64,000 nucleotides of DNA from a virus, in the IMG/VR virus record IMGVR_UViG_3300035034_003571, positions 62,001 through 126,000 of that record; one strand, written 5' to 3'. Of this stretch, positions 37,465 through 57,894 are shown piece after piece; within the stretch, counting starts at the first letter, position 1, and every line of letters starts with the position of its first letter. The notes under the pieces are model-generated. The model was not told the origin of the DNA. It saw nothing but the letters and a program-made list of their open reading frames with translations, and did no database searches. The position numbers were made by a program, and so were the translations under genes.

Positions 37465-39138
37465 TTAAGATAAACCTCCAGAAGGTACCTTCACACTGAA
37501 TGTGATGTACATTGTTTCAGGTAAATGACCAGCTTCAACTAGAGAGTATCTAGATTTAACTGCTACCTTAGGTGACATAGTACCTTCAGAGATTGTCTGA
37601 ATGCTTTCTGCCATCATGTAAGGCATGAACTTAATACCTGGCTCATCGTCTCCACCTTTTCTTCCAACTAAAACTCTGTTGTCTGAGAACGCCATGTTCT
37701 GATCAACATATACAGTCATACCTGCAAGCGAACCTACTGGGTAAAGTGTACCGTTGTTTTGAGTTAAAGTATTAGAGAATGGTGCAAATGTGAACTGAGA
37801 GATGTCTTGAAGTGCACTTGCTACATTAGCGTTAGTAACGATAAAGTTAGCAGGACCTCTTCTTCCTCTGTTAGCTACAACGTTTGCAGATGCTAAGATT
37901 CTAGAAAACAATCTTCTCTGAAGAGTAGACAAGTTTTCATATCCTCCAGCAACTGGACCATCTGGAATAGCCATTACTGTACCCACGTCTTCTTTTCCAA
38001 CATAAGCAGGAGTGTTACCAGCACCTGTATCACCTATTTCTAGGTTAAGGTTAAGGTTAGTTCCTTCTGTTGTTAGGAATTGCAAGTGGTTTGACCATCC
38101 TAAAGAGAATGCTCTTGCCAAAATGTGCTTGTTGATTGCTTGAGATACCTCATTAACCAATGCGTTTTCGATCATAGAAACTACGTCGATACCGAATTGC
38201 TTGTTAAGATCTTGGATTTGCTCCGTTGTTACTGATGCAGCTACTTGGAAAGTGTCTGCTTCAACAAACTTAGTGAAAGTCGAAAGACCTAAAGATTTGT
38301 AGTAGTTAGATTCACCTACACCTCTTAACATTGGGTTGTAAGTTTTCGTTCCATCTACATAAGGACCTTGAAAGTCATCAGTGTTGTTAAAACCAGCACC
38401 AGAGAATCCTTGAATGTGATCTTCTAGAGTTTTAACCAATACTGCGTTACCAGCAACTGTACCACCTGTATCGATAGCCGCTCCTGATAAAACTGTACCA
38501 GCAACTGTACCACCGTTAGTAAGAGCTGTGATTCTCAAAATTGGGAATCCATCAATTCTTGATAGACCTACAAAAGAACCAGTTAATAAGGATGCAGGTG
38601 AAGCTGGAGGATTAATTACAACTGCTGTCCCTACTGCCATAGTATCAAAAACTGCCGCTGCAGTAGGATCTACTGGAAATTTAATAACATCCGGTGCGTT
38701 ACCATTTTGTGCTGTACCGTCAGATACACCACCTAGTTCACCACCAGCGTATACGTAATCCAAGTAGGATAATACTCCCGTTGGTCCAGACATTGGAATA
38801 ACTGGGACGATATCAAACCCAACAGTTTTCGCTGCTACCTGAATTGCTAAAGGTAATAGTGATGGGAATTTATCTCCAGATCCTGAATTGTCTGAATTGT
38901 AGAACCCTTGGTTAGGTGTTCCTGTGAAGTTACCATTTCCTGGGTAAGCAGGAGGAGCAACAGCACCCATACCGTTAACAGTACCAAGTGTTTGGTATGC
39001 TCCGGCTGATTCATTTAATGAATGATAATGACAGTATTTAGTCAACCATTCTTTTTTGCCTTCGTCTGTAATACCAGCTTTCGACTCGATTAGAGGTGCC
39101 CAGGTATCATAGATTTCTGCTTCGTTAATTAATTTCAT
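37465..39138 (-). CDS. gp23: Major capsid protein, gp23-like
   Basis: A 557-aa protein matching the HK97-fold capsid protein of T4-like phages. The start AEIYDTWAPLIESKAG aligns by eye with T4 gp23 AELLNKWKPLLEGEGL. A propeptide ending at H-S-L-N-E/S (residues 41-44) is predicted, equivalent to the T4 cleavage after LTE at residue 65. Other family marks: QIQDLNKQFGIDVVSMIENA-type helix near 315, RRGPANFIV near 425 and AGMTVYVDQNM near 480. Codon use here is clearly richer in C/G third positions than its neighbours, as expected of a very highly expressed gene. It is followed by a strong terminator. Confidence 0.93.
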   Translation of the reverse strand: MKLINEAEIYDTWAPLIESKAGITDEGKKEWLTKYCHYHSLNESAGAYQTLGTVNGMGAVAPPAYPGNGNFTGTPNQGFYNSDNSGSGDKFPSLLPLAIQVAAKTVGFDIVPVIPMSGPTGVLSYLDYVYAGGELGGVSDGTAQNGNAPDVIKFPVDPTAAAVFDTMAVGTAVVINPPASPASLLTGSFVGLSRIDGFPILRITALTNGGTVAGTVLSGAAIDTGGTVAGNAVLVKTLEDHIQGFSGAGFNNTDDFQGPYVDGTKTYNPMLRGVGESNYYKSLGLSTFTKFVEADTFQVAASVTTEQIQDLNKQFGIDVVSMIENALVNEVSQAINKHILARAFSLGWSNHLQFLTTEGTNLNLNLEIGDTGAGNTPAYVGKEDVGTVMAIPDGPVAGGYENLSTLQRRLFSRILASANVVANRGRRGPANFIVTNANVASALQDISQFTFAPFSNTLTQNNGTLYPVGSLAGMTVYVDQNMAFSDNRVLVGRKGGDDEPGIKFMPYMMAESIQTISEGTMSPKVAVKSRYSLVEAGHLPETMYITFSVKVPSGGLS

Positions 39139-39174: not shown

Positions 39175-41130
39175 TTATCTTCGTCCAAATCTTCCTTCTA
39201 AAGCCTTAGCAACATTAGCAACATAATTATTAGAATATCCTGTGCTTGTTGTAGGTCCAGATTCTTTTTCGGATTCTGATTTTTGATTCTCGTTTAACTT
39301 CTGAAGTCCAATTGGATTAGATCCAAGGTTTCTAGTTGACCAGAAATCTTTTATTTGGTAAGTAGTTTCTAAATTCCTTAGAGCTGCCTGAGCCATTATA
39401 GAATTTTGGTGACCTTCTGAAAGGGTTTTCCAAGATTCTTTATATTCCTCTGGCATTTCATTGATGAATTTATATTCTGACTCTCCTTTTGGTTTTTCAG
39501 ATTCGTTAAGAACCGTTTTTTGTGCCTTTTGTACTTTGGCACCCTCTGGAGTCTCTGTCTTTTGTGTTTGGACAGACTCAATAAGTTTATCTATACTTTC
39601 TGAAAGATTTGTATAATCTCCAGCAAAGCCTGATTCGTTTAAGTTAGCAGTAGATGCAAGGTCAGCCTTTTTTCTAGCTATTTCGCCCTCATTTAATGGC
39701 TGTGCTTCATTTACTGCATTTATATTTTCTGAAAGGTATTCGGAATAAGAAATAGATTTTGTAAGTTTCTCTGACAAATAATCAGAAAAGTCTAATCCTT
39801 TATTAAGATTTTCAGAAAGATACTCAGAATAAGAAATATTATTATTTACATTTTCTGCAATATGCTCACTGTAACTTATACCTTGATCCATTTTTTCTGC
39901 GATGTATTCAGAATAAGCTAATCCCTTTTCAAGTCCTTCAGCTAAATATTCAGAATAAGCAATGTTATTGTCTACGTTTTCAGAAACGTATTCTGTATAA
40001 TTAATTCCTTCCTCTACCTTTTCTGCTAGATATTTAGAATAGCTAACATTTTTATCTACATTTTCTGCTACGTATTCAGAGTAAGCAATTGACTTGTCAA
40101 GATTTTCAGCTAAATATTTTCCGTAGCTAATTGACTTATCAAGATTCTCTGATAGGTATTTACTATATGTAATGGAATTATCTAAATTTTCCGCTAGATA
40201 AGAACCATACTTCATGGCATTATCTAGGTTTTCAGCAAGATACTCGCTATACTTTTCTAGTTTAGAAACTCTCTCTTCTAAATTTGAGGTATCCGTTGGA
40301 GACTCCGTACTTTCTGATTCTTTTATTGTACCAATAGCTGAATTAATTTTTTCTAATTCCGCTTTGATAAGAACCGAATAGTCGTTCATGTCCTTTACGG
40401 TAACAAACTCTTTACTGTTTTCTTCCATTCTGGTAGACTTATTTTTATCCTGATTATTCAAAATTTTTGTGAATTCGTTCACGTCTTTGATTTTATATAT
40501 CTCCATGCTAGATTCTTTTTCTAACCCTAAAGACTGGTTTATACATTCTAGACCGTTCGTAACACTTTTGTTATGAAAATCACTAAATGTTACCCCGTTA
40601 CTCTCATACACCCTTTCTAATTGAGCATCCTGAAATCCAGGGTCTGCAACCAGATCGTATGTAAATATTTTTTTAATAGCTACTTTTTTATTTTCCCCAA
40701 CGGTACCAGCTGCTCTAGATGAAATTGATATTGGGATTCCCGCATCAACTAAGCCTTTAGCTATTTTTCCAGCTGGGGTATCTAATAGTTTTACTTTAAT
40801 TCTTAAAACTCTAGCTTCTTTATCGTAAATAAGATCCTCCACTACGTGTGAAATGTTTTTTAGAGAAACATCAAATTTCTCTGGGTGATCTAATTCACCA
40901 ACTAATCTTCTAGAAGTTATTTTTTCTTTTAGATATTCTAAATGAGGCATATATTCAGCCTCATCATAAATTCGGTTATTGTTATTTTCCTTTCCAAAAA
41001 CCGCTGCTACTCCTTCCAAATAATAATCTCCTGAGGAATCCACAGTTTCATTTAGTTTAGTATACTTTAGGCTTTCGTCTTGCCTATGAAGCATAAAAAC
41101 CAAATCATTATATTTTTCGTTTATATTCAT
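39175..41130 (-). CDS. gp21: Prohead protease fused to scaffold (gp21-gp22 type)
   Basis: A 651-aa protein. Residues 1 to about 180 are the gp21 serine protease: GELDHPEKF with catalytic His82, SISSRAAG with Ser near 137-138 and FTYDLVADPGF near 157-166. Residues about 250-650 are scaffold-like: 13 tandem 14-residue repeats (core YSEYLAENLDKSIS), then a tail with several L-N-E sites (QPLNEG, ANLNESG, TVLNESE, QKLNENQ). T4 encodes protease and scaffold separately, so this is a fusion. K-L-N-E/T near residue 25-29 may be a self-cleavage site. It lies directly upstream of the capsid gene, with a GATATATA promoter 22 bases before its ATG. Confidence 0.85.
   Translation of the reverse strand: MNINEKYNDLVFMLHRQDESLKYTKLNETVDSSGDYYLEGVAAVFGKENNNNRIYDEAEYMPHLEYLKEKITSRRLVGELDHPEKFDVSLKNISHVVEDLIYDKEARVLRIKVKLLDTPAGKIAKGLVDAGIPISISSRAAGTVGENKKVAIKKIFTYDLVADPGFQDAQLERVYESNGVTFSDFHNKSVTNGLECINQSLGLEKESSMEIYKIKDVNEFTKILNNQDKNKSTRMEENSKEFVTVKDMNDYSVLIKAELEKINSAIGTIKESESTESPTDTSNLEERVSKLEKYSEYLAENLDNAMKYGSYLAENLDNSITYSKYLSENLDKSISYGKYLAENLDKSIAYSEYVAENVDKNVSYSKYLAEKVEEGINYTEYVSENVDNNIAYSEYLAEGLEKGLAYSEYIAEKMDQGISYSEHIAENVNNNISYSEYLSENLNKGLDFSDYLSEKLTKSISYSEYLSENINAVNEAQPLNEGEIARKKADLASTANLNESGFAGDYTNLSESIDKLIESVQTQKTETPEGAKVQKAQKTVLNESEKPKGESEYKFINEMPEEYKESWKTLSEGHQNSIMAQAALRNLETTYQIKDFWSTRNLGSNPIGLQKLNENQKSESEKESGPTTSTGYSNNYVANVAKALEGRFGRR
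39706..40251 (-). repeat. 13 tandem 42-bp coding repeats (YSEYLAENLDKSIS unit)
   Basis: Thirteen units of exactly 14 residues (two heptads), starting at the Tyr codon 40249-40251 and ending at 39706. Consensus Y-S-x-Y-L/V/I-A/S-E-N/K-L/V-x-x-x-I-x. Units differ in DNA, so this is old or selected repetition. The third to sixth residues fit L/V/I-x-E. Confidence 0.9.
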
Positions 41131-41196: not shown

Positions 41197-43680
41197 TTAA
41201 GCATATTTTATGTCATTCTTTACAGAGTCGACTAATTTTTTAGCTATTTTAAATGACTCGCCATCAACTTTTTTATACTCTCTTTTTCTATCTCTAGCTC
41301 CGGCTTTAGCATTTTTAAAGGAGATTTTATAAATAACCCCTGCTCTTTTCATAGCTTTGATTTTGGTTATATTTTTCCAGCTGTCTATTTGAAGTGTTTT
41401 TATTTCTTCTTTAGTTAGAAATTCATCCATTATATTAACACCCTCTCTCTTAACTCGATCTTTAATAAGTATAGAATTTTGTCTCTCCTTATATTTTACA
41501 TCATCAGGGGTAGTTACTAAACCTTTATCTGAATTTGATTCGTCGTCTTTAGATTTCATATCTTTTTCAGAATCGATAGGTTCGTTATCTTCTTCGTCCT
41601 CTTTTTCACTCTCGGTATCTTCTATAGAAATTTCTTGAACTCCTTTAGTTGCATTTGTAAATTCAATATCTGCAGAAGAAAATACAAGTACAGGCTCTCC
41701 ATTTTCTACAAATAGACTTTCATTTTCTACTAAAAATAATCCCAGGTTAGGAATTTTTTTCTGGTCCCCTATTGAAGGATCCGCATACGAAGCAGTATCA
41801 AAATCATAAATAGCAACACCTACTGGATTAGCTAATTGACTAGGAGTTAATTTAACAGTGCTTGATTCGGAATCTTCTTCAGCTTCTTTTAGAAAATCTA
41901 CTAGGGTTCTTTTGATATTTAAATTTAAGCCCCCTTCAAATCCCTCAGATTCGTCTATATCGTTTCCTTCACCAAACCCAAAAACTTCTTCTATTTTAGA
42001 ATTACTTAGACTGTTAATTGTTTTAGTATCTAATACATTCCCGGAAAGGTTTATAATGTCCCCGTCCTTATCTTCGAAATTGAATACAAATTCGTCTGGT
42101 GCATTTTTTAGCTTGCCTATTAAATAGTTGGGTGCTTTCTCATACACATTTTTAAATGCATCCCATTCTGAATGTCCTTGGTATAAGTAGGGGAGTAAGA
42201 TTCCTTTATCGCTTTCGATCTGGATCATTTCATGATCTAAATCATCATTATCAAAAAATCCTCTTTCTATCTTTTCTGAATTATCAAAAGCTAGCATAAC
42301 CAGAGCATTTTCACTTAATGCTTTTTGGAGTCCTTCCGAATTCGCTTGAGTCATTATAAACAAAGATCTTTCCTCATATTCACCTACCTTTATTAATTCC
42401 ATAGTAGTTCTAGTTTCGTCGGTAGCTACCCACTCCATCCAAGATCCCGAAGGTTGGGACCAACAAATCGTTATTGGGATTCCCGCTTGAATTTCTCCTG
42501 GGTTAAAGTTACCTTTAGCAAAGTCTTCCACCTCACTATATTTAGGTGCTTGTGAAGATCTATTCCAAGACCAAAGTGAATATGCTGCGTCGGCAAGCAT
42601 AAGAACTTCACCCACAAAAGGTATAGCTTTACTAAATGCTTTAGAACCTACCTTAGCTGCTGTTTTCCCCATAAATTTCGGAAAAAGCTTACTAGTTCCA
42701 GATCCCCTCATAAAAGCCCTCAATAAACCAACCGGCCTAATTCTTTTAATTCGGGAAGCTCTTAATGTAGAGGATATTCCTCCTCTAGTATTTTTTAATG
42801 AAGCTAAACCTCCTATAGTTCCGAATCCGGTTTTAATATATTTTGTAGCCTTAGCCAATCTCTGAGCTTTTTTAATTTTTGCAGCGGCCTTTGCAGCGGC
42901 CTTTGCAGCGGCCTTTGAAGGTCCGGTAACTCTTTGAGCTACCCCGAGAAAGCTTCTAACTCCTTTACTAAAAATCCACCTTCCGATGATTACCTTACCA
43001 GCAGCTATTCCTCCATAGACTATTAATCCGGTTACTGCCAAAGCCCCGCCAACAATTATTGATTTTTCGAGTACATCCTCTATAATTTCATTAAAATTAT
43101 CTTCATTGGAAATTTTTCCAGTATACGGAATCGCATAATCAATATTTATTAAATTAAAAGTATCAGATCCAGTTTTCATTACTTTGGCTCTATATGCCTG
43201 TAGACTTTCGACCATCCCATCAGAATCGTCTTCTTCACCAACGAAGTTAAGAAATAGGGCTACGGTTTCGTCATCCATTTCAGAGGGTGTAAAAGTTTCT
43301 TTTAAATCACCCGATTCTATTAATCTATTATATGCAAACCCAAATTTTATCGCTTTTTGAGTTAATTCTTTAGTAGATTCTTCCCCTTTATCTTCGGCTT
43401 CGTTTATAGATTCATTATTTTTATTAATAAAAGAGTAAAAGTCATTTAAGGTAGAAACTATTTTATTTTCATTTAGTACCTTAGATTCTTCATTATATAA
43501 AGATTCAGCTTGCCAATCTCTAGGATTTGCCTTTAGCCATTCATGAAAATCTTTAGATTTTGCCCACCACTGAAAATCTTCTAATGAGGATTCTTCTCCT
43601 CTAGCATCTGTCGGAATAGCTAGAAGAGGTGTAGTTTCTCCTTTTTTATATGAGCCCTTTCCGGGCGATAATAATATCAT
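41197..43680 (-). CDS. Large head-block protein with membrane segments and Ala-Lys repeat
   Basis: An 827-aa protein. The acidic N-terminal 190 residues hold L-N-E and I-N-E sites (VLNENK, ESINEAEDK). Residues about 205-235 form a Gly/Ala/Ile-rich hydrophobic stretch (IIVGGALAVTGLIVYGGIAA), followed by a strongly basic region with AAAKAAAKAAAK near 262 and KKAQRLAKATKYIKTG. A second hydrophobic segment is near 355 (IPFVGEVLMLADAAYSLW). The C-terminal part is alpha/beta then acidic (EKEDEEDNEPIDSEKD). It lies between the nucleotidyltransferase and the protease gene. A membrane-active internal protein ejected with DNA is a plausible inference. Confidence 0.5.
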   Translation of the reverse strand: MILLSPGKGSYKKGETTPLLAIPTDARGEESSLEDFQWWAKSKDFHEWLKANPRDWQAESLYNEESKVLNENKIVSTLNDFYSFINKNNESINEAEDKGEESTKELTQKAIKFGFAYNRLIESGDLKETFTPSEMDDETVALFLNFVGEEDDSDGMVESLQAYRAKVMKTGSDTFNLINIDYAIPYTGKISNEDNFNEIIEDVLEKSIIVGGALAVTGLIVYGGIAAGKVIIGRWIFSKGVRSFLGVAQRVTGPSKAAAKAAAKAAAKIKKAQRLAKATKYIKTGFGTIGGLASLKNTRGGISSTLRASRIKRIRPVGLLRAFMRGSGTSKLFPKFMGKTAAKVGSKAFSKAIPFVGEVLMLADAAYSLWSWNRSSQAPKYSEVEDFAKGNFNPGEIQAGIPITICWSQPSGSWMEWVATDETRTTMELIKVGEYEERSLFIMTQANSEGLQKALSENALVMLAFDNSEKIERGFFDNDDLDHEMIQIESDKGILLPYLYQGHSEWDAFKNVYEKAPNYLIGKLKNAPDEFVFNFEDKDGDIINLSGNVLDTKTINSLSNSKIEEVFGFGEGNDIDESEGFEGGLNLNIKRTLVDFLKEAEEDSESSTVKLTPSQLANPVGVAIYDFDTASYADPSIGDQKKIPNLGLFLVENESLFVENGEPVLVFSSADIEFTNATKGVQEISIEDTESEKEDEEDNEPIDSEKDMKSKDDESNSDKGLVTTPDDVKYKERQNSILIKDRVKREGVNIMDEFLTKEEIKTLQIDSWKNITKIKAMKRAGVIYKISFKNAKAGARDRKREYKKVDGESFKIAKKLVDSVKNDIKYA
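42881..42916 (-). repeat. Three tandem 12-bp repeats encoding KAAA units
   Basis: GCAGCGGCCTTT (plus strand) is repeated three times without change, encoding K-A-A-A three times. Perfect identity implies recent slippage. Confidence 0.85.
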
Positions 43681-43694
43681 AATCTATATTTTAT

Positions 43695-44474
43695 TTACTC
43701 TTCTGAATATATCCTATCATAGGATTTTGATATAAGGTCTATAAGTCTCCCTATATATCCACTATTTCTAAGCTTTTTAAAAGCTAGATTGCCTATAGAA
43801 AACTCTCCTCCTTTAGATAATGCCTCTTTTCTCATCTTCATTATCTTATCTTTTCTCTTAGTAGCTAAGTCATATAGTTCTTTAGCATTCGAAGGAATTT
43901 TTTCGCTAGATATTAATTTACTTTCTAGGCTATCTATTTCTGAGGAAATGGAAAGGTACTTTTTTTCTATATCTTCGTCTCTTATATCAGGCTCTTTGTG
44001 ATTTGGTTTTTTAATCCATTCATTATTTAATAAGGAATATAAACCAGTGGACTTATGCGGTTCTTTTATATCTTGGACATAAACTTCGACTTCGTGACCT
44101 CTTATTCTAATATCATGTCTAACGTTCCATACAAACCTTATCCCATCAAAAGCTGCCTTTGTAAGTTTCTTTGGAGCATCTATTTTGTCGAAATCGACAA
44201 GGACATGAACATCAAGATCAGAAAAATCAGTATAATTGTAATTAGCTATAGACCCAGTTAATTGAATATCTTCTATTGGAACATTCTTAGCTATATTTTT
44301 ATACTTAGAATAGAATTCCTCAGCTATACTAACAAGCTTCTTTCTAACGCTAGGGTCCAAATCAGCAGAGTCCTCATCCTCGTCCCAAAAAAGAGGATTT
44401 AAAGAATCATGATAATATTGGGTAGATTCTTTTAGTAATTTCCAACTGGAAAGTGTTTTTTCTAAATAACTCAC
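43695..44474 (-). CDS. Nucleotidyltransferase with capsid-targeting-like N-terminus
   Basis: A 259-aa protein with a GTG start. Residues 72-92 hold the pol-beta NTase signature LTGSIANYNY then SDLDVHVLVD (GS at 74-75, Asp86 and Asp88 as metal ligands), with a third acidic strand EVEVYVQD near 128-135. These enzymes move NMP to a protein, RNA or small molecule. Residues 1-17 (LSSWKLLKES) look like the targeting peptides seen nearby, with L-K-E/S at 14-17. It could be a packaged effector that modifies a host target, as T4 Alt does by ADP-ribosylation; target unknown. Promoter and start lie inside or beside the upstream terminator. Confidence 0.7.
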   Translation of the reverse strand: MSYLEKTLSSWKLLKESTQYYHDSLNPLFWDEDEDSADLDPSVRKKLVSIAEEFYSKYKNIAKNVPIEDIQLTGSIANYNYTDFSDLDVHVLVDFDKIDAPKKLTKAAFDGIRFVWNVRHDIRIRGHEVEVYVQDIKEPHKSTGLYSLLNNEWIKKPNHKEPDIRDEDIEKKYLSISSEIDSLESKLISSEKIPSNAKELYDLATKRKDKIMKMRKEALSKGGEFSIGNLAFKKLRNSGYIGRLIDLISKSYDRIYSEE

Positions 44475-44510
44475 AAAAAAAGCCGTTTAGATTATATATC
44501 CAAACGGCTT
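44475..44510 (-). terminator. Terminator after the 3'-5' exonuclease gene
   Basis: Minus strand: stem AAGCCGTTT / AAACGGCTT with a loop that contains GATATATA, followed by a run of seven T. It lies about 20 bases past the exonuclease stop. Confidence 0.8.
44493..44500 (-). promoter_or_regulatory. Candidate late promoter in a terminator loop
   Basis: Perfect GATATATA, 18 bases before the GTG start at 44474, entirely within the hairpin of the upstream terminator. Confidence 0.55.
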
Positions 44511-44529
44511 CTAGTGGTTTATGTATTAT

Positions 44530-45237
44530 TTAAAATAGAAGGGATTTCATTACTTTCATTACTGCTATAACATCATCCTCACAATATTTTACAATATCTT
44601 TTATATTTCCTGAATAATAGAAAGGGGAAACTAAAGATCCGTCCATTTTTCCCTTAGGGGAAGGAATTCCCATAGAGCATGTGAGTAGATCCAAACTTAG
44701 GGTCTTTTGCATCTGCCAACTTCCAAAAGAAAAAATATCTGCAGTATCTAAAAAATTAATCTCCCATGGTTTTTTTCCATAAACTCTAAGGTTTGAAGAA
44801 GGTTCTATTCGATTATAAAGCATTCTTTTTCCTATACAAGGGATATCAAAGGCTTTTAAGTTATGTCCACAAAGCTGCCAATTTTTTGCTAGAGCGTTAT
44901 TTAATATTTTATTTACCTTATTCAACAAATCAGTTTCTTCCTCATCATAAACGGAAAAAAGTTTCATTCCGTCAGGGGAATTTTTATCAAAGGTTCCGAA
45001 AGATACGCAAACTATTCTAGAAAATTCTGGTTCCAAACCTGCTCTATCTCTAAATATAGCGGAAGGTGATGCAAACTCATAACTTTTTTTAGAAGCTATA
45101 TAATATTCAGCTCTTTTTTCCCAAAGTTTTGCAAGTCTAGGATTTTTTTCTTGGAGAGTTTCGAAATCTTTTTCTATACCAACGGTTTCTACATCAAGAT
45201 ATAGACAATTTTCTACTACTTCCTTAGCTATAAACAT
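44530..45237 (-). CDS. DEDD-family 3'-5' exonuclease (PolB-exonuclease-like)
   Basis: A 235-aa protein with the order of a DnaQ-like exonuclease: Exo I LYLDVETVG (Asp15, Glu17), Exo II LCGHNLKAFDIP (about 145-156, Asp), and Exo III YCEDDVIAVMKV near 219-230 (Y-x-x-x-D type). It best resembles predicted exonucleases related to the proofreading domain of DNA polymerase B that are common in Bacteroidota. Role: trimming 3' DNA ends in phage repair or replication. It follows the UvdE-like gene by 19 bases. Confidence 0.8.
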   Translation of the reverse strand: MFIAKEVVENCLYLDVETVGIEKDFETLQEKNPRLAKLWEKRAEYYIASKKSYEFASPSAIFRDRAGLEPEFSRIVCVSFGTFDKNSPDGMKLFSVYDEEETDLLNKVNKILNNALAKNWQLCGHNLKAFDIPCIGKRMLYNRIEPSSNLRVYGKKPWEINFLDTADIFSFGSWQMQKTLSLDLLTCSMGIPSPKGKMDGSLVSPFYYSGNIKDIVKYCEDDVIAVMKVMKSLLF

Positions 45238-45256
45238 AATTTAAAATATTTAGTTG

Positions 45257-46162
45257 TTAAGACTTTACCCTATCTATAATTACGGGTTTTAGAGATTTGT
45301 ATTCATTAATGTACCTATAGCAAGAAAGTTCCTTATAGTTACTTTCTATAGCTACACATATATTTTTATTGAAAGTTGGGATCCTTTTATTTAAATGATT
45401 TGAAATGGTCCGAGACTCCGGAATTCCATTTTGATTGAAATTAATAGGTTCCGCATGTATTACTAGGGGTAATCTTTTTTTGCTCCATGTTGAAATACTT
45501 AAAGCTAGAGCATCTCCGTGAGTTAGAGAACCTGGATTGAAATAATGTCCAATAGTTCTGAATACTATCGGAATCTTATAAGTTAAGCTTAATTCTGTTA
45601 ATAAATCCTTAACCGAAAATAAGCTAGGTCTATCGTCATTAACAACCATAATTTTATTTCTCACTCTTTCATTCAACAAACTTTTAAAATTACTAGCAAA
45701 CCTAATCATTGTTTCTTTTCTATTCCCGTAAGCACTTCCTACCCTAACTATAATTCCTCCTTCTGGGTATATCCAATCCATTATGATATCTAGATTGTCT
45801 AATCCACAGCAGGTACTAGTAACAATTTTTTCTTGCATGCTTCCAAGAAAATAATCTTTAGGAACATAAAAAAATACCCTATGATTATTAACCTTTATTT
45901 TTTCCTTAAGCGGAATTAATAAAGCTCTACATTTTATTATATCGTCTCCTACAATATGATTATTAAAAATTTCTGATATGAATTCAAATTCAGAAATGTC
46001 CACTACTGTAGTGGAAAATCCTTTTTCTATATTAAATGATATAATATCAAGTATCCATATAGAAAAATCCAGTTGTGGATTGTCTTTAGTTACTTCCCGC
46101 ATTTCTTCCGAAACCGGTTCTCCTAAATAAGTAAGTTCGTATTCTGGGATTCCTATTTTCAC
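45257..46162 (-). CDS. UV-damage endonuclease (UvdE)-like protein
   Basis: A 301-aa protein with a GTG start. The region GGIIVRVGSAYGNRKETMI, FASNFKSLL, KIMVVNDDRPSLFSVKDLL, then IPIVFRTIGHYFN follows the UvdE TIM-barrel order (strand, NF-helix, ENDD-x-(Y/F)-x-x-x-D-L-L, GIPxVFDxHHH). The C-terminal AIESNYKEL fits the UvdE (M)xEaKxKE motif. However, the metal ligand Glu of ENDD is Val here, and the His cluster is reduced to one His, so activity may be changed or lost. The family nicks DNA 5' of UV photoproducts. Confidence 0.55.
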   Translation of the reverse strand: MKIGIPEYELTYLGEPVSEEMREVTKDNPQLDFSIWILDIISFNIEKGFSTTVVDISEFEFISEIFNNHIVGDDIIKCRALLIPLKEKIKVNNHRVFFYVPKDYFLGSMQEKIVTSTCCGLDNLDIIMDWIYPEGGIIVRVGSAYGNRKETMIRFASNFKSLLNERVRNKIMVVNDDRPSLFSVKDLLTELSLTYKIPIVFRTIGHYFNPGSLTHGDALALSISTWSKKRLPLVIHAEPINFNQNGIPESRTISNHLNKRIPTFNKNICVAIESNYKELSCYRYINEYKSLKPVIIDRVKS

Positions 46163-46204
46163 TTTACTATTTTATTATTATAGCAAATAATAGGTTATTG
46201 TTTC

Positions 46205-46687
46205 TTAACCACCTACGGTTTCTATTCCTAGGTCAGAAGATGTATAAACTCCGTCTGGGTTTTCACCTTTAGGGAAATCGATTTTAAAATCACTTATAAC
46301 TTGTCTGTGCCCTTTATCACCGAAATCTACATGCTCTATGGTATCTGGTTTAAGTTCCATTACCTTTTCGCCATTTTTGAGCTTTTTGGAAGATACCTGG
46401 ACATGGATTACGAATCCTTTATTATCCTCGGTTCTTTTGGCTTTAACGATCATACCAGCTACTTTTTTGTCTTTCTCGTCAACAGGAACACCTATAACTA
46501 AATCCCCCATTCCAAACTCAGATCCTGATACTTCTCTTTTAACATTGGGATCTGGACCGACTTCTATTCCTAGATCTTTGAAAGGTCTGTAAGTAATTTT
46601 AAATATACCATTTCCTCCCCCGTCCCCGTACGAGTCACCGAATGCGCTACTGTCAAAAAATTCGTTTATACTTTTAATATTCTTCAA
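46205..46687 (-). CDS. Small head-block-type protein with I-N-E leader
   Basis: A 160-aa protein with a TTG start; no in-frame ATG precedes it. The leader MKNIKSINEFFDSS resembles the targeting peptides of the head proteins, with an I-N-E site at 7-9. A Gly-rich stretch (GDSYGDGGGNG) follows, then a compact beta domain (GDLVIGVPVDEKDKKVAGMI, FVIHVQVSSKKL). No family is recognised. The N-terminus and location suggest a virion-internal protein. Confidence 0.5.
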   Translation of the reverse strand: MKNIKSINEFFDSSAFGDSYGDGGGNGIFKITYRPFKDLGIEVGPDPNVKREVSGSEFGMGDLVIGVPVDEKDKKVAGMIVKAKRTEDNKGFVIHVQVSSKKLKNGEKVMELKPDTIEHVDFGDKGHRQVISDFKIDFPKGENPDGVYTSSDLGIETVGG

Positions 46688-46708
46688 GTGATGTAAGTAT
46701 TTTTCCTT

Positions 46709-47257
46709 CTATTTATCTAACTTTTTTAAATATTCTATACTTTTCTTGATTTCGTTTGCAGTTTCATAGTCTTCTAAACTAACTGCTTTTTTTAAATCCA
46801 TTCTAAGTTTATCCAAATCATTATAAGCTTCAACAGTTTCTTCTGGTAAAGAAGGATCCATTAACATTATCCTTTGTGGACAATATAAAACTTCCAGCCT
46901 AGATTTAGTTTCAAATTCTAATGAGTCGTTTATAGTTCTTTCGTCTTCCTCGTCTTCATAGTCATCCTCGTCAGAATATATACTAAGATCCCATTCATCA
47001 TTAGTCCAATAAATATTCCAGTGGGAATATTGCATAGAAGGGATCTCATTTCCTATCATATATTTTATAACACTCCGTAATTCGTGCTTTAAATCTTTAA
47101 CGGTAATTTCCTCAGACGGTTCTTTTCTTTTAAGACCGGGGATTGCAAAATTAGTGAGACCTATTCCATAATTAAAAGAATGATGTACTTTTAATAGCGC
47201 CTCCCAATCTATAGCTTTTATTACCGAATTTAATAATTTTCTATGGTTTTCTTTCAT
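46709..47257 (-). CDS. Unknown protein with C-terminal UVR motif
   Basis: A 182-aa protein. The C-terminal helix-pair LRMDLKKAVSLEDYETANEI then KKSIEYLKK matches the UVR motif that links UvrB and UvrC and also occurs in ClpC-type proteins (L-x-x-x-M-x-x-A-x-x-x-x-D-Y-E-x-A-x-x-x-R/K-D-x-I). The N-terminal part is unrecognised and has a very acidic spacer (DEDDYEDEEDER) near residue 95. The motif mediates protein-protein contacts, so a partner is expected. It lies in the replication/repair block. Confidence 0.55.
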   Translation of the reverse strand: MKENHRKLLNSVIKAIDWEALLKVHHSFNYGIGLTNFAIPGLKRKEPSEEITVKDLKHELRSVIKYMIGNEIPSMQYSHWNIYWTNDEWDLSIYSDEDDYEDEEDERTINDSLEFETKSRLEVLYCPQRIMLMDPSLPEETVEAYNDLDKLRMDLKKAVSLEDYETANEIKKSIEYLKKLDK

Positions 47258-47266
47258 TTAAGTCCA

Positions 47267-47695
47267 TTATTTTCCTGATGTTTTTAATTGCGCTTTTAAA
47301 GAAGTAAGCCAATCTCTATATTTATCCGGAAAGAACTCTTTTAATTCTGACAATTCTCTGGAACTTACAGAAAATTTTTCTTTTATGAAATCCTCGACCT
47401 CACTAAAATCATCAAAAGATGGCTTAGAGGAGCTTTTAGTTTTTTTAGGTTTATTAGTTTTTGTATAAATCCATGTGGGTTGTCTGGAGTAATTTTTAGA
47501 TAAAGTTCTATGCCACCAATCAACTACTGGATATGGGTTTATTTTTAATCTATTAAACTGGTCTGCTTGAATTGGAAATTGTATAGCCATTATCCTATTG
47601 ATCATAAAATAATTTCTTTTCTTATCAGAATTACTTACTTTATCCCATTCAGAATCTTTTTTAAAAATAGTTTTTACTAAGTCGAATAGTTCCAT
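47267..47695 (-). CDS. Possible clamp-loader small subunit (gp62-like), uncertain
   Basis: A 142-aa protein starting MELFDLVKTIFKKDSEWDKV, then NYFMINRIMAIQFPIQADQF and NPYPVVDWWHRTL. The first 70 residues recall the small clamp-loader subunit of T4-like phages (L-F-D-x-L-K...Y-x-x-x-N-R-x-x-S), whose partner gp44 is encoded 3 kb upstream. The second half is basic then acidic and helical. It is 2 bases after the flap exonuclease. The assignment rests on a weak N-terminal pattern and context only. Confidence 0.35.
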   Translation of the reverse strand: MELFDLVKTIFKKDSEWDKVSNSDKKRNYFMINRIMAIQFPIQADQFNRLKINPYPVVDWWHRTLSKNYSRQPTWIYTKTNKPKKTKSSSKPSFDDFSEVEDFIKEKFSVSSRELSELKEFFPDKYRDWLTSLKAQLKTSGK

Positions 47696-48899: not shown

Positions 48900-49742
48900 A
48901 TGAAAGATTATTACGTATATGTTTATTTAGATCCAAACGATCCTGGGGATTTTGAATATGGTGATTTAAGATTTACTTTTAAACCTTTCTATATAGGGAA
49001 GGGGACTAAAGATAGATGCTATAGTGGGATAAGAGATAAGGGAAGATTCTATAAGGTTAGTAAAATAAAATCTATATTAAAAACCAATAAATTTCCTATT
49101 ATAACTAAAATTTATGAAAATATTAGTAACCAAGAGGCTATGGAAATTGAGAAATCTTCGATAAAGTTAATAGGTAGGAATGATTTGGGCCTTGGGCCTC
49201 TCACTAATATGACAGATGGTGGAGATGGTGGACCTGGATATTTACACAAAGAAGCATGGAAAAAAATTCTTTCCAAACCAGTTATCCAATATGACAAGAA
49301 AATGAACCCGCTAAATGAATTCAATTCCATAAAAGAAGCAGCAGAAACACTTGGTATATTTAGCCAAAATATTTCTTCAGCTTTAAATAAAAAACAAAAA
49401 ACCGCTGGGGGATTTATCTGGGCGTATAAAAATCCAGAGGATTTTTTACAGGGCCATCTAAAAACAAAATCCAAAATGCCCAGCCACTCAGAGGAAACAA
49501 AAGATAAGATGAAGAAATCTGCTAAGAGAGGGGAAGATCATCCCATGAGCAATAAAACAGGGAAAGATCATCCAAGGGCTAGATCCATAAGACAAGAAAC
49601 ACTTACTGGAGATTTAATTAAAACCTGGGGATCTTTTCAAGACATTAAAAGGGCTCTTGGTTTTTCTCCATCTAATATATGTAGATGTTGTAAAGGAGAA
49701 GTTAAAAGAATTGGGGGTTTTAATTGGGAATATGTAAATTAA
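48900..49742 (+). CDS. GIY-YIG homing endonuclease
   Basis: A 280-aa plus-strand gene. The nuclease domain starts with YYVYVYLDPND, then FKPFYIGKGTKDRCYSG near 27-43 and a helix with Glu (SNQEAMEIEKSSIKLIGRND) giving the GIY-YIG catalytic set. After it come NUMOD-type DNA-binding modules: a helix-turn unit VIQYDKKMNPLNEFNSIKEA near 127-146, a NUMOD3-like H-S-E-E-T-K-D-K-M region near 200, and a second S-I-R-Q-E...F-Q-D-I-K-R-A unit. It sits between the flap nuclease and the guanylate-kinase-like gene, whose stop it abuts by 2 bases. A free-standing selfish element is inferred. Confidence 0.88.
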   Translation: MKDYYVYVYLDPNDPGDFEYGDLRFTFKPFYIGKGTKDRCYSGIRDKGRFYKVSKIKSILKTNKFPIITKIYENISNQEAMEIEKSSIKLIGRNDLGLGPLTNMTDGGDGGPGYLHKEAWKKILSKPVIQYDKKMNPLNEFNSIKEAAETLGIFSQNISSALNKKQKTAGGFIWAYKNPEDFLQGHLKTKSKMPSHSEETKDKMKKSAKRGEDHPMSNKTGKDHPRARSIRQETLTGDLIKTWGSFQDIKRALGFSPSNICRCCKGEVKRIGGFNWEYVN

Positions 49743-52199: not shown

Positions 52200-53201
52200 C
52201 TACTTACTATCGGAGTTATACTTAAGCATCTTACATGCCTCCACCAACTCACCTAGCTCAACTGGGGTTGCTCCCATGTACCTACAAGATATATGCCCAC
52301 TTATATTAGAAATTTCTAATGTATTATCTATATCTATTTTAGAAGCCATACACAAAGATAAAGTAGCTACTAAGCTATCTCCTGCACCACTAGCATCAAA
52401 GACGTAAACCTTATACCCTTCTACTAATTTCGTTTTATCTTCTTTAACGTATAATAATCCACCACTTCCTAATGTTACTATTAGCGAATCTATTCCTGTT
52501 TTTCTTATGAAATCAAAACAAAGCCCTTCTAACTCCTCTTTCGTTAAATCAACTTCCAGAGGAAGTCTATTAATAGTTTTCATATAATTTAAATTCGTCC
52601 TCAGTATATTCACTGAAGCTAGAGAATTTAATTTATAATTGGAGTTGTGATAATTAGGGACATCCAGGATAATCGGTACGTTAGCAGATAAAGCTTTAGA
52701 AATAACAAGATCCAAAATCTTTTCGTCTATAAACATTCTACCACTATCCTGAATTATTACAGCTGAGTATTCCTTGATATTAGAAATTTTATCTTCTATA
52801 AAATTATAAATCTTATCCCTAGATTTTATAGGTGATGTTGGGGTATCTATTCTAGCTACATGTTTACCTGAACTAAAAACTCGAGTACTTAAAGAATTTT
52901 GATAATCATCCAAGGTTAATATAAGATCCTCTGGTAATGCAACTTCCTTGAATTTATTTTTTATTAGCTTTTCTAGAGCATCCTTTCCGACAATACTTAA
53001 AATATCGCAGGATCCCTCTAGACTAATTATATTATTTGCTATGTTTCCTATACCTCCTAATTGGTATTCAGTGAACTCCCTTTTAACTATTGGAATTGGG
53101 GATTCATAAGAAATATTGGACGAAGTCCCCATGATATACTCGTCAAAAACTAAATCACCAACGAGTAATATTTTACCCGCTTTAAATTCTATTCCTTCCA
53201 T
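52200..53201 (-). CDS. PfkB/ribokinase family sugar kinase, HldE (RfaE)-like
   Basis: A 333-aa kinase close to the N-terminal domain of HldE, the ADP-heptose pathway kinase. Signatures: LLVGDLVFDEYIMG at 12-25, the SPIPIVK stretch, QLGGIGNIANNI at 47-58 (sugar/substrate contact), NILRTNLNYM near 203-212 and the PfkB signature VFDASGAGDSLVATL near 265-279 with the catalytic Asp in GAGD. A C-terminal cytidylyltransferase domain, found in two-domain HldE, is absent. It is 8 bases after the second portal gene. The likely activity is phosphorylation of a heptose or related sugar phosphate. Confidence 0.75.
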   Translation of the reverse strand: MEGIEFKAGKILLVGDLVFDEYIMGTSSNISYESPIPIVKREFTEYQLGGIGNIANNIISLEGSCDILSIVGKDALEKLIKNKFKEVALPEDLILTLDDYQNSLSTRVFSSGKHVARIDTPTSPIKSRDKIYNFIEDKISNIKEYSAVIIQDSGRMFIDEKILDLVISKALSANVPIILDVPNYHNSNYKLNSLASVNILRTNLNYMKTINRLPLEVDLTKEELEGLCFDFIRKTGIDSLIVTLGSGGLLYVKEDKTKLVEGYKVYVFDASGAGDSLVATLSLCMASKIDIDNTLEISNISGHISCRYMGATPVELGELVEACKMLKYNSDSK

Positions 53202-53209
53202 TTTTATTT

Positions 53210-54823
53210 TTATAAAGTAAAGTTACTTTCTCCTCCTGATTCTTCTGCTCCCTCTTCTCCTGATCCTTCAGCTTCTTTTTTCTTTTCGAAGATCTTTTTT
53301 ATTTTTTCCTTATACCTAGAATTGGCTTCTATTTCGTCTGGAGTTAATCCAAGGAATCTTTGTACTAAAAAATTTGGATCGAAATAAGCCTCTTCCTCTT
53401 CCCCAACTTTTTCAGAAAGAGTAGATAGAGTAGATATGAAAGAAGCTCTTTTAGCAAGATGTCCGAGTTTAATTTTTAAATCAAACTCGCTCTCTTTTAC
53501 GAAATTTATACCTAGATTAGATTTAAAAGATTGATCCGATGCCAAATCTGGGTAATCTAAACACATCTGAATGTATAGAGGTTTTATTAAAATCTCTTGG
53601 AAATTAGATCTCAATCTATTCAGGAATTTATCAAACCTCATTTCATCCCTTTCCATCTGATCTATATTTATTTGATGGTTAGATGGGGTTCCTCCTTTAG
53701 CAGCAAATCTAGCATAAGGAATTTTAGAATCTTGTTTTAGTTTATTGAAAAAATACGTAACAGTTTCCATGACATTAAAATCAGGGCCGTTTGGATTCAG
53801 AGATTCTATCTGTGGACTTTCCCCATTTTTTTCAGGAAACATATAATTTTTATAAAACTGTACTTTTGGTCTTCCGTTAATTGTTAATTCTCCACTGCTA
53901 TCATCTAGGTCTATTTCTTCCTTGTAATTGGACATTAATTGGCCCAGTGTTTGAAGCGCTTTTTGTTGAGATTGAGTACCAACAGGAATAATAAATTTAA
54001 GTCTATATGAAGCGTTCATTACGTTCCATATAACCCTAGTATTTTCCATTATTCTTAATATATTATAGGATCTAACTAATCTTTCGATATAGCTAACCCT
54101 AGATATAGCATTACCTTTTGCATAAGAAAGATATATTACCTGCTCGTCTTTAAGCTTTCTAGTTAAATTTGCATTCCCTGGGTATTGTATCCAAAACTGT
54201 TCAAATTTATCAGGTCCAACTTTTTCTACTGTAGGTTGCAAAGAAATTGCATCAAGTTCTTTAAATCCGACTATATTTTTCCCAGTGTTATCGTAAACTA
54301 TTTCTAAAGCCAAAAAACCGTCTATAAGAAATTGCTTCATGTATTGCCAACCTAAATTTGAATTAGTAAAGCCAAAAAGTGAATATATTTTTCGAAAGTT
54401 TTCGAAAACCTTATCTCTAACCTTATCTTTTAAATCCAGATTTACCATTTCTGGGTAAGCAAAAAAGTTTTTGGAATCTTGGACTATAGCTTCGTCCGAC
54501 ATAGTATCTAATATGAATTCAATCTCACCATTTAAAGAAAATTTTCTAAGAAAATCCCTTTTTCCTCCATAATCTTTATCAAAATATGCTATATATTTTC
54601 TTACTCTAGTATCTTGTAAAGCTGAAGTCCATCTGAAAGCATCAGAAACTGTAGCTCCGACCCCTTCTGAGTTAACAAAACCAGATTCGGTCTTCCCTAT
54701 AGACTGGGAATTCCTTATTATCATATCTTGATACTTCATACCGAACCTTGAAACCTTACTAAGGTTTCTAAATAGGGTAGTCAAAGATTGTCCGCTTCTA
54801 ATATTATCTAAAAATCCTGCCAT
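53210..54823 (-). CDS. gp20: Portal protein gp20-like, copy B
   Basis: A 537-aa protein homologous to T4 gp20 (524 aa), the dodecameric vertex through which DNA passes. Family marks: REYIAYFDK-like segment (RKYIAYFDKDYGGKRDFLRK), EIEFILDTMSDEAIV, IYLSYAKGNAISRVSYIERL near 228-247, KALQTLGQLMSNYK, and the wing/crown stretch MERDEMRFDKFLNRLRSNFQ near 405-424. It is closely related to the neighbouring copy A and starts with the same MAGFLDN. The C-terminus is Glu/Gly-rich. Its start overlaps the stop of copy A (TAATG). Confidence 0.9.
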   Translation of the reverse strand: MAGFLDNIRSGQSLTTLFRNLSKVSRFGMKYQDMIIRNSQSIGKTESGFVNSEGVGATVSDAFRWTSALQDTRVRKYIAYFDKDYGGKRDFLRKFSLNGEIEFILDTMSDEAIVQDSKNFFAYPEMVNLDLKDKVRDKVFENFRKIYSLFGFTNSNLGWQYMKQFLIDGFLALEIVYDNTGKNIVGFKELDAISLQPTVEKVGPDKFEQFWIQYPGNANLTRKLKDEQVIYLSYAKGNAISRVSYIERLVRSYNILRIMENTRVIWNVMNASYRLKFIIPVGTQSQQKALQTLGQLMSNYKEEIDLDDSSGELTINGRPKVQFYKNYMFPEKNGESPQIESLNPNGPDFNVMETVTYFFNKLKQDSKIPYARFAAKGGTPSNHQINIDQMERDEMRFDKFLNRLRSNFQEILIKPLYIQMCLDYPDLASDQSFKSNLGINFVKESEFDLKIKLGHLAKRASFISTLSTLSEKVGEEEEAYFDPNFLVQRFLGLTPDEIEANSRYKEKIKKIFEKKKEAEGSGEEGAEESGGESNFTL

Positions 54824-56412
54824 TATTTATCTTCTTTATTATCACCTTCTTCATCACCCCTTTCGTCTTCTTCATCCTTCTTTTTCTTTTCATCAGCAGC
54901 TCTTTTCTTAGCTTCTTCATTGGACTTTATATCTTCATTATTTAAGCCCAGATATTTTTCTATTAAATATCCAGTAGAAAAGAAGGGTTCATTTTCAGAA
55001 ATGTTTATTTCCATTAATCCATTAATTGATTCCAATTTATTATTCATGGTTTCAATTTCCTGATTTACCCTAAATGGATTATCAGAAAAATATTGTAAAC
55101 CCAATTGACTTTTAAATTGATAGTCAGTTGCAAGAGCTGGGATTTCTTTACACATCTGAATCCATATGGGCTTTATCAAAATGCTTTGGAAATTAGATCT
55201 CAATCTATTTATAAATTTATCAAATCTAATTTCTTCTCTATCCATCCCATCAGCACCATCAGAATAATTCCCCTGTGTTCCACCTTCAGGTCCTTGGAAT
55301 CTGGAAGAAGGAACTTTAGATTCCTGAATTAGTTTATCATAAAAATATGCTAAAGGTTGCATATCATTAAGGTCTGGCCCCGCAGTATCCAAAGGTTCTA
55401 TACTAGGAGTACCATTTACTCCCGAAGGAATCAGATAATTCTTATAGAATTGTATTTTAGGTCTCCCGTCCATCGTTAGCTCCCCGCTTTCGTCATTGAA
55501 TTTAATATCTTCCTTATAGATACTCATTAATTCTCCCAAAGTTTGCATAGATTTTTGAGGAGACTTAGTACCTATAGGAACAGTCATTTTCATTCTAAAT
55601 GAAGAATTCATAACAGACCATATGATCCTAGTATATTCAATAATTCTTAGTACGTTATATGGTCTTATTAGTCTCTCTGCATAACTTACTCTGGAAATAG
55701 AATTTCCCTTCGCATAAGAAATATAGATTATTTGAGAATCATAAAGGGTTCTTCTTTTTCTTTCGTCGTCGGGATACTGTATCCAGATAGGAATGAACGA
55801 GCCATCTTTCTGTTCTTCCACACTTGGTAAAATACTACTAGAATTAAGTTCTTTAAAACCTATAATTTTTTTCCCGTCGTCATCATAAATAATTTCGAAT
55901 GCAAGTACTCCCTCTATTATTAATTGGCGGAAAAAATGCCAAGCAGTACCATCCTCATTAAATCCCCACAGAGAATAAATACTCTTGAATACTTTATCTA
56001 ATTTATCTTTAACCTTTTCATTAGCATTTGAAAGATTCAAAAAGTTAGGAGTAGCAAAAAAATTGGAGGGGTCAGTATTGATTGCTTCGTCGCAAACTAA
56101 ATCTAATATAAATTCAATCTCAGGATTTAACGAAAATTTCCTAAGGTAGTCTTTCTTTCCCTCATATCCCTTATCAAAATAGGTAACATATTCTCTAGTG
56201 GTTGTATCCTGTCTACCTAAAGAATATAATAAAGCTTCATCGCTTATAGGACCATTTTGTAGAAAAACAGCTTCAGTGGCACCTACTGCCTGAGAATTCT
56301 TAATGACTAAGTCATTATATCTCATACCAAAAGTACTTAATCCCTTAACAGAATCTTTTATTCTATTAAATAGATTATTACTACTAGGTTCATTATCTAA
56401 AAATCCCGCCAT
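54823..56412 (-). CDS. gp20: Portal protein gp20-like, copy A
   Basis: A 529-aa protein, full-length and homologous to T4 gp20 and to the adjacent copy B. Shared marks: TREYVTYFDKGYEGKKDYL, EIEFILDLVCDEAI, IYISYAKGNSISRVSYAERL, SMQTLGELMSIYKED and DREEIRFDKFINRLRSNFQ. The two proteins align over nearly their whole length by eye, differing most at residues 20-60 and in the charged C-terminus (here KKKDEEDERGDEEGDNKED). Neither shows a frameshift or loss of a conserved block. It comes first in the operon, after the 208-aa gene. Confidence 0.9.
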   Translation of the reverse strand: MAGFLDNEPSSNNLFNRIKDSVKGLSTFGMRYNDLVIKNSQAVGATEAVFLQNGPISDEALLYSLGRQDTTTREYVTYFDKGYEGKKDYLRKFSLNPEIEFILDLVCDEAINTDPSNFFATPNFLNLSNANEKVKDKLDKVFKSIYSLWGFNEDGTAWHFFRQLIIEGVLAFEIIYDDDGKKIIGFKELNSSSILPSVEEQKDGSFIPIWIQYPDDERKRRTLYDSQIIYISYAKGNSISRVSYAERLIRPYNVLRIIEYTRIIWSVMNSSFRMKMTVPIGTKSPQKSMQTLGELMSIYKEDIKFNDESGELTMDGRPKIQFYKNYLIPSGVNGTPSIEPLDTAGPDLNDMQPLAYFYDKLIQESKVPSSRFQGPEGGTQGNYSDGADGMDREEIRFDKFINRLRSNFQSILIKPIWIQMCKEIPALATDYQFKSQLGLQYFSDNPFRVNQEIETMNNKLESINGLMEINISENEPFFSTGYLIEKYLGLNNEDIKSNEEAKKRAADEKKKKDEEDERGDEEGDNKEDK

Positions 56413-56428
56413 TAATTGTTATTTTATA

Positions 56429-57055
56429 TTATACCCGAGGATCAGCTTTTAATTTCATTTGATATTTCTTATATATCTCAGAAATTCTTAAACCAATAAC
56501 AGAGTCGAGATTTATATATGGAATAGCTTCCCAATCTGAGTAATCTATTACTTCAATATTTCTAAAGAATTTTCTTTTAAATCCTGTATATGAAACCGAA
56601 TATCCCGTTCCCCCTAATAGTTTTTTAATAGTTTTAGGTCTAAGATCCAAAGGTATTTGATTTGATGTTATTTGGTTTGAGTTTTTATCTATAACCTCTT
56701 GGTAGTATTCAAAAACTTTTTTTAGAATTTCCGCCCTATATAAATGCGGAGTTACTATAAAATCTATAAAAAATTCTATCTTAGTCCCATCTTTTAATTT
56801 TTTCCCAGCTCCACAGTACAAGCCCAAAGGCATATGGTTAATATATTCTATTTTGTTACTTAATTTTGAGTCAGTAAAATAGTCGAAAATATATACTTTA
56901 CCAGGAATTAGATTACCATTAAATGTTTCTTTAGGAGCTTCTGATTTACCTCTAGAATATTTTTTTCTAAAAAGGTTCTCAGTATTTTTCATAACTTTTT
57001 CTACAGATCTTCCATTTTCTAGTTTATATTCCAGAATTCTATCATCAAAATTCAT
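56429..57055 (-). CDS. Packaging-region protein, unknown
   Basis: A 208-aa basic protein between the gp4-like nuclease and the portals. The middle reads GKVYIFDYFTDSKL, MPLGLYCGAGKKLKDG, IVTPHLYRAEILKKVFEYY, which resembles a short domain in other T4-like phages (G-x-x-Y-x-F-x-Y...(F/M)PL...GxNxHYL-x-x-x-R-x-x-L) that I know only as an unnamed virion or packaging-linked protein. C-terminal SDWEAIPYINLDSVIGLRIS is also typical of that group. Role possibly head completion or DNA-end protection; not proven. Confidence 0.5.
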   Translation of the reverse strand: MNFDDRILEYKLENGRSVEKVMKNTENLFRKKYSRGKSEAPKETFNGNLIPGKVYIFDYFTDSKLSNKIEYINHMPLGLYCGAGKKLKDGTKIEFFIDFIVTPHLYRAEILKKVFEYYQEVIDKNSNQITSNQIPLDLRPKTIKKLLGGTGYSVSYTGFKRKFFRNIEVIDYSDWEAIPYINLDSVIGLRISEIYKKYQMKLKADPRV

Positions 57056-57534
57056 TTTCCTCTAAATAAGAAATTTTCATCCACTACCTTAAATTTAAAT
57101 CCTCTCTTACCTGCCCACTCTATCGCAGCTTTGAATTTAGCTTGGTTTGTGATGTATACCTGCATTCTATGATTATAAGCCTTCAGCTTTTTTTCCGTTT
57201 TTGCTCCCTCAAAAACTGGTTTTTCTACTTGCCTCTCGGGTTTTACTTCTAAAATCCATTCTTCGGTATCCCCGTCTCCCTTATCAGACTTAACATAAAA
57301 GTCAACATAATATTTATGAATTTTTTTATCCAGTGGATTATAATAATCTATAGGCATTGGTTCCGAAGCCCATTTTAATATAGATTCGTTTAAATCACAA
57401 TAAGAACAAAATCTATATTCCCAAGAAGATCTACAAATTATATTGTGAATATCGCCTATGTATTTTTCAGGATTTGTAGGTTCGTATTTACCAGATCTGA
57501 AATTCCCATTGGGCTTTATTTTTTTAATAGACAT
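57052..57534 (-). CDS. gp4: Head completion nuclease, gp4-like
   Basis: A 160-aa protein with a clear gp4 (T4 head completion) pattern: FRSGKYEPTNPEKYIGD at 12-28, ICRSSWEYRFCSYCD near 33-47, WASEPMPIDYYNP, HKYYVDFYVK and EWILEVKPERQ near 94-104, then NQAKFKAAIEWAGKRGFKF. The D...E-x-K placement (VDFYVK, LEVKPE) is a PD-(D/E)xK-type nuclease core. The protein acts late in head maturation before tail joining. It overlaps the 208-aa gene by 4 bases. Confidence 0.88.
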   Translation of the reverse strand: MSIKKIKPNGNFRSGKYEPTNPEKYIGDIHNIICRSSWEYRFCSYCDLNESILKWASEPMPIDYYNPLDKKIHKYYVDFYVKSDKGDGDTEEWILEVKPERQVEKPVFEGAKTEKKLKAYNHRMQVYITNQAKFKAAIEWAGKRGFKFKVVDENFLFRGK

Positions 57535-57537
57535 TAC

Positions 57538-57894
57538 CTATATATTATAATTTCCAGAATCTCCTGTTATATGGCTAAATGGAATAGTGTTAGGGCTTTT
57601 TGGTGGATGTATTTTTTTCCATCCTTTAGCAAATCCGTTTTTACCTATTTGAGTAAAATAAGCGAATGGGTTATTAGATTTTTCCGGATTGAATCTATTC
57701 CAATATTTTATAAGGTCCTCCATAGCTGAAGCCATGCAATCGTTTCTATCGTCTGGATTTTTATAAGCCATTCTTTTTGCTATACCCTCTATCATTAAGG
57801 TAAACATATCAATCATTTCTCGAGTAAGTTCTCCAGCTTCTTTAGATTCTTTAAATGCTCTCATTAAATCTACATTTCTAACATAATTAGCCAT
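57538..57894 (-). CDS. gp55: Late transcription sigma factor, gp55-like
   Basis: A 118-aa protein that fits T4 gp55-like minimal sigma factors of large phages. It has helical sigma-2-type elements: LTREMIDMFTLMIEGIAKRM, then DRNDCMASAMEDLIKYWNRF and the conserved NPFAYFTQIGKNGFAKGW near 80-97, which is the region 2.3-like DNA-melting helix. In T4 it directs host RNA polymerase to late promoters (TATAAATA) together with the clamp. Here the AT-rich GATATATA elements are the candidate targets. Its own promoter variant is 19 bases upstream. Confidence 0.8.
   Translation of the reverse strand: MANYVRNVDLMRAFKESKEAGELTREMIDMFTLMIEGIAKRMAYKNPDDRNDCMASAMEDLIKYWNRFNPEKSNNPFAYFTQIGKNGFAKGWKKIHPPKSPNTIPFSHITGDSGNYNI

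Follow-up and report, generated by a model that had tools for sequence, protein, structure and literature searches.

Why should a phage of the T4 type carry two complete portal genes side by side? In tailed-virus assembly the portal is the fixed reference point, from which the head is begun and to which both the packaging motor and the tail are attached; the twelve chains of its ring have so far been regarded as identical. One gene that yields a homo-dodecamer is usual for the T4-type portal family, but is not part of the definition of that family. The locus lies in a window of 64,000 nucleotides (G000:C1:62001-126000), which is the whole stretch of DNA that we analysed and comes from a linear IMG/VR record of 131,159 bp, itself probably a fragment. 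An initial annotation had described two gp20-type portals of 537 and 529 aa that lie side by side with an overlapping stop and start, and our analysis confirmed their coordinates, their lengths and the TAATG overlap (Table 1). We refer to the upstream copy as portal A and to the downstream copy as portal B.

Table 1. Positions in the window of the portal pair, its junction and the associated head-module genes.
Feature	Position	Strand	Length	Match or remark
Major capsid protein (MCP)	37465..39138	(-)		phrog_138, 4e-33
Head maturation protease domain protein	39175..41130	(-)	651 aa	phrog_207, 4.8e-35
Portal B, downstream copy, T4 gp20-type	53210..54823	(-)	537 aa	PF07230, 201.8 bits; phrog_213, 2.5e-55; B clade SH-aLRT 97
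TAATG junction	54821..54825	(-)		A stop and B start share one base, 54823
Portal A, upstream copy, T4 gp20-type	54823..56412	(-)	529 aa	PF07230, 204.7 bits; phrog_213, 1.3e-58; A clade SH-aLRT 99
Protein of no known family	56429..57055	(-)	208 aa	directly upstream of A; no Pfam or PHROG match
T4 gp4-like head completion/head closure protein	57052..57534	(-)		phrog_218, 4e-46; syntenic
T4 gp55-like late sigma factor	57538..57894	(-)		phrog_234, 4.3e-14

Both copies are intact T4 gp20-type portals with no internal stops. Each exceeds the curated cut-off of 22.9 bits for PF07230 (Portal_T4) and matches PHROG 213, 'portal protein', across most of the length of that family. Alignment of A with B gives 49% identity over 504 aa (E 2e-177), and a chance likeness of the two is thereby excluded. 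AlphaFold models of A and B, built with alignments of 47 rows, reached moderate confidence (mean pLDDT 63.6 for A and 63.2 for B; pTM 0.54–0.57), at which detail at the level of domains is uncertain. The best structural matches of both models were to T4 gp20 (PDB 3JA7, 6UZC and 9MKB), with E-values of 2e-16 for A and 1.5e-18 for B and TM scores of 0.41–0.60 over the T4 rows (about 440–560 columns). A profile alignment onto 3JA7 runs from wing to crown, and the models of both copies agree with a T4-type portal fold that comprises wing, stem, clip and crown. We take the models as support for the portal family and fold, not for interface detail. Where the pair departs from the family pattern is in gene number, as every dual record has two full genes.

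To follow the pair beyond the window, we searched IMG/VR with A, B and alignments and then took a census of portal ORFs. Relatives with one or two portals, the comparison that the initial annotation had proposed, proved plentiful: full-length A–B tandems stand at 188 loci, and 98 loci from sister and more distant lineages carry a single portal. Because some tandem loci are stretches of the same contig that overlap, distinct A sequences (96) or identity clusters (63 at 95%, 8 at 70%) give safer counts for the tandem. Gene order is invariably A followed by B at the IMG/VR tandem loci, and the gap between the two genes is −1 to 23 nt in all 43 dereplicated genomes measured. The census contained no A without B and no B without A except at contig ends and at two loci, L068 and L199, in which one copy is frameshifted by what looks like sequencing error. 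Two complete portals where T4-like phages normally carry one, as first noted for this locus, are thus an obligate pair throughout a clade, set against single copies in its sisters and in the phage collection described below. The dual-portal group is a large, mostly uncultured clade of big T4-related phages. An assembly artefact, which the initial annotation had named as grounds for dismissing the pair, falls away, as dozens of independent assemblies carry both copies. The chance that the pair is such an artefact, or that one copy is a decaying pseudogene, is negligible; both ideas are refuted, since 63 clusters carry the pair in independent assemblies, dN/dS is about 0.02–0.03 and the reading frames are uninterrupted. 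The clade probably infects Bacteroidota. Several of its nearest named relatives do so (Lak/Prevotella, Tenacibaculum and Chryseobacterium), and upstream regions are A-rich with almost no Shine–Dalgarno-like motif, as is expected in Bacteroidota.

Described phages follow the single-copy pattern. Across 50,697 phage records, A matched in 1,099 at 1,101 places and B in 2,088 at 2,090 places, and the only two-place records listed were LR756501 and LR756503, which share the same length and the same coordinates; the second of the two places in LR756501 is the 342-aa ORF described below. Unlike the A–B pair, the collection has one full portal place per record, and none of the 50,697 records held a comparable A–B pair in a search that may omit records very near the window's own genome. 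In the open-access literature we found no report of paired or mixed portal genes in a phage clade, although a report that we did not see may exist; the nearest match, in PMC11376236, concerned Wolbachia prophage islands with 'two portal proteins', and the other near match was figure wording only (PMC10276861). The portal family is known, and the obligate paired arrangement is new. The closest single-copy homologues are the portals of huge phages (LR756500, LR756502, the Lak phages and loci L016–L018, L244–L263 and L311–L375), the nearest at 46–54% identity. The gene order around the portal is conserved in these phages, but they carry one full portal and fall outside the A+B clade.

Portal-derived sequences of other kinds occur among these giants. 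LR756501, a 735-kb phage, encodes a second portal-like protein of 342 aa (L031:1219-2244, around 142302-142835 of LR756501.1) that keeps the wing and stem without clip and crown, and a full portal is encoded elsewhere in the record. It resembles the pair in being an additional gene of portal origin in a related giant; unlike the intact A–B tandem, it is truncated and lies far from the main portal gene, and it apparently arose independently. The same record has two terminase-like matches (610627-611040 and 700298-700732 of LR756501.1; loci L163 and L161) in ORFs of 760 and 394 aa, which may be explained by another terminase, by a split gene or by an intein. Two single-portal giants have short ORFs that are possibly portal fragments or chimeras: a clip-like-only ORF in LR756500 (L032:1297-1866; LR756500.1 255914-256339) and, at L165 (482-kb record G001, near 260068), an ORF resembling the clip end and the stem helix that follows it. 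A search for a stand-alone clip-like protein in the dual genomes returned only the two full portals.

A portal tree of 18 dual genomes and 16 single-portal relatives recovers A and B as separate clades (Table 1) that together form a third (SH-aLRT 98), with the single-portal lineages branching outside, and an earlier tree with other taxa gives the same picture for A and B. The A and B subtrees largely match, with the same two main groups in each. A gene order of 704-aa protein, sigma factor, gp4-like protein, 208-aa protein and portal is common to the dual phages and the L017-like single phages, the latter with one portal. These sequence comparisons are most simply explained by a single tandem duplication on the branch leading to the dual clade, with strict co-inheritance thereafter. 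AU tests did not reject trees in which sister lineages join A or B (p 0.39), such that a copy may have been lost there, and the terminase tree is weakly resolved (79/82). A recent duplication was rejected, as the two copies are about 50% identical in each genome and form separate clades; identity among A sequences falls to 49% across the clade. Ancient duplication and the retention of both copies are, at the level of sequence, established.

The same comparisons weigh on a simple explanation, in which the second copy is redundant and merely raises the amount of portal protein. The tandem arrangement and likely co-expression would suit such a dosage effect, but A and B are distinct orthologous groups, about 50% identical everywhere, that have been kept over deep divergence without loss. 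Median A–B identity within a genome is hardly above that between genomes (50.3% versus 49.6%), giving no sign of whole-gene conversion between the copies, and about 12 portal subunits suffice per virion. We regard dosage as very improbable.

Both copies evolve under similar constraint. Median dN/dS (NG86) is 0.029 for A and 0.020 for B, from 45 comparisons that are not independent and were restricted to dS below 2; the values are approximate because dS is often near saturation, and they indicate strong purifying selection on both genes. Eighty positions are invariant in both single-portal groups, and 69 of them are kept in A and 69 in B; the stem branches of the two copies in the portal tree are 0.19 and 0.17, and total tree lengths on one fixed shared topology are 3.94 for A and 4.21 for B. 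Asymmetric neofunctionalisation was rejected, as invariant positions, stem lengths and tree lengths show no asymmetry. With portal domain borders transferred from T4 (PMC4493910), domain-wise conservation is nearly equal in A and B. The least conserved parts of both are the N-terminal 20–60 region, the crown and the C-tail, so that the divergence first noted at the N-terminal 20–60 and the C-terminus was broadly right and extends to the crown. An exception is the first four residues, which read MAGF in 41 of 43 A sequences (MPGF in the other 2) and in 43 of 43 B sequences. Strictly group-specific positions number only 8–10 (8 fixed differently at 80%), some of them in the clip, wing and stem. 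We found no clear complementary A/B interface among these few positions. Residual rates of A and B correlate weakly (Spearman 0.22), the only positive value among 21 gene pairs; it is not significant on its own and counts slightly for a mixed ring.

This symmetry bears on the proposal that only one copy acts as the genuine portal while the other serves a second role, for example as an initiator or scaffold ring, a second neck ring, a terminase decoy or a terminase regulator. The 342-aa protein of LR756501 suggests that related giants may put portal paralogues to new uses, and the few group-specific clip and wing residues of the dual clade could be read in the same way. A copy recruited to another job would, however, be expected to lose invariant positions, and retention of 69 of 80 by each copy counts instead for a mixed ring. 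Divergence is symmetric, no domain has been lost, rates are equal and dN/dS is low in both, and we consider a second role for one copy distinctly unlikely.

The pair lies within a head module. It adjoins the gp4-like and late sigma genes, with the protease and MCP genes about 10–15 kb downstream (Table 1), and the position of the 208-aa protein is kept in the dual loci and in single-portal loci L016–L018 and L124. Full portals number exactly two in each dual record, against a single terminase, a single full-length MCP and a single neck-protein match; contigs checked for portal copy number reach 373 kb, again with exactly two full portals each. A general duplication of head genes was rejected, as terminase, MCP and neck protein each give one full-length or one significant match per dual record. 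Apart from the portals, the search for tandem paralogues in the record found only three collagen-like proteins of 537–561 aa with Gly-X-Y stretches, which are probably tail fibres, at G000 42504-47490 (locus L129), outside the window. The neck-protein match in dual phages (L386–L388 and relatives) sits in ORFs of about 730–850 aa, a size much larger than that of T4 gp13. Directly downstream of B is a gene for a PfkB-family carbohydrate kinase (window 52200-53201), which evolves fast and was detected at many, not all, dual loci. Amid the minus-strand genes are plus-strand genes encoding a homing-endonuclease-like DUF7487 protein (11194-12477) and a GIY-YIG/NUMOD protein (48900-49742).

We favour the explanation that the portal gene was duplicated, that both copies were retained as an obligate pair and that one hetero-oligomeric ring is assembled from A and B together, to which we assign a probability of roughly 55%. 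A hetero-oligomeric ring predicts obligate pairing and symmetric constraint, and both are seen: co-retention of the paralogues has no exception in the census, the narrow gap suggests co-expression, and the two paralogues are constrained alike. On this reading a single portal gene underwent one tandem duplication in an ancestor of this T4-related clade, and the tight junction, TAATG in the window, may couple translation such that A and B are made together. The two products would then enter the same portal ring, in the simplest form six A and six B in alternation. The T4 neck has a dodecamer of gp13, with arms that reach in between neighbouring clips, and a hexamer of gp14 (PMC12270204), and it is on account of this arrangement that we take six-and-six alternation as the simplest form. 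With A and B together in one ring, the capsid would still meet twelve wings, and the terminase and neck twelve clips; the 6-fold symmetry of the ring could match the hexameric neck and tail, and the group-specific clip and wing residues may provide different partners for neighbouring subunits. That the whole clade builds its portal as an obligate A/B hetero-oligomer, with symmetry lowered from 12-fold to 6-fold, we put at about even odds.

Conservation of both copies could also arise from two separate homo-dodecameric rings, one of A and one of B, serving different stages, different capsid forms or two vertices. Two working portals would likewise keep the single-portal invariant positions and the whisker equally, as A and B do, and would conserve all surfaces that contact capsid, motor and neck; T4 gp20 without its first 73 residues also forms homo-dodecamers on its own (PMC4493910). 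Against separate rings, each record has one terminase and one full-length MCP with no sign of a second head or motor, and no sampled lineage has lost either copy. Stage-specific transcription is unlikely because A and B overlap, or nearly so, in every genome measured, leaving little promoter room. Separate rings are conceivable but rather unlikely overall. Among the three options raised by the initial annotation, symmetric conservation thus speaks for a mixed ring rather than for a second role of either copy, and a stage-specific ring retains some of the probability.

The pair shares with T4 gp20 its family over nearly the full length and the same head module of gp4-like, gp55-like, protease and MCP genes. 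T4, by contrast, has one gene and a homo-dodecamer, whereas the window has two obligate, anciently diverged genes, known from sequence. Duplication of a T4-type head gene into two specialised subunits of one particle has a precedent in the capsid and vertex paralogues gp23 and gp24, which differ from A and B in forming the shell and not the portal and in diverging strongly in role and number. The phage lambda portal has been reported with two subunit forms, gpB and gpB*, but these come from one gene by proteolysis, and here there are two genes.

If A and B do share a ring, we know of no earlier genetically encoded mixed portal, and the clade would serve as a natural experiment in how portal symmetry is read by the motor, the capsid and the neck. 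The dual clade, standing beside single-portal sisters at the same locus, offers a natural comparison for whether subunit identity matters to the motor or to the capsid mismatch. For virus surveys, counts based on the g20 portal marker overestimate the dual-portal group by a factor of two.
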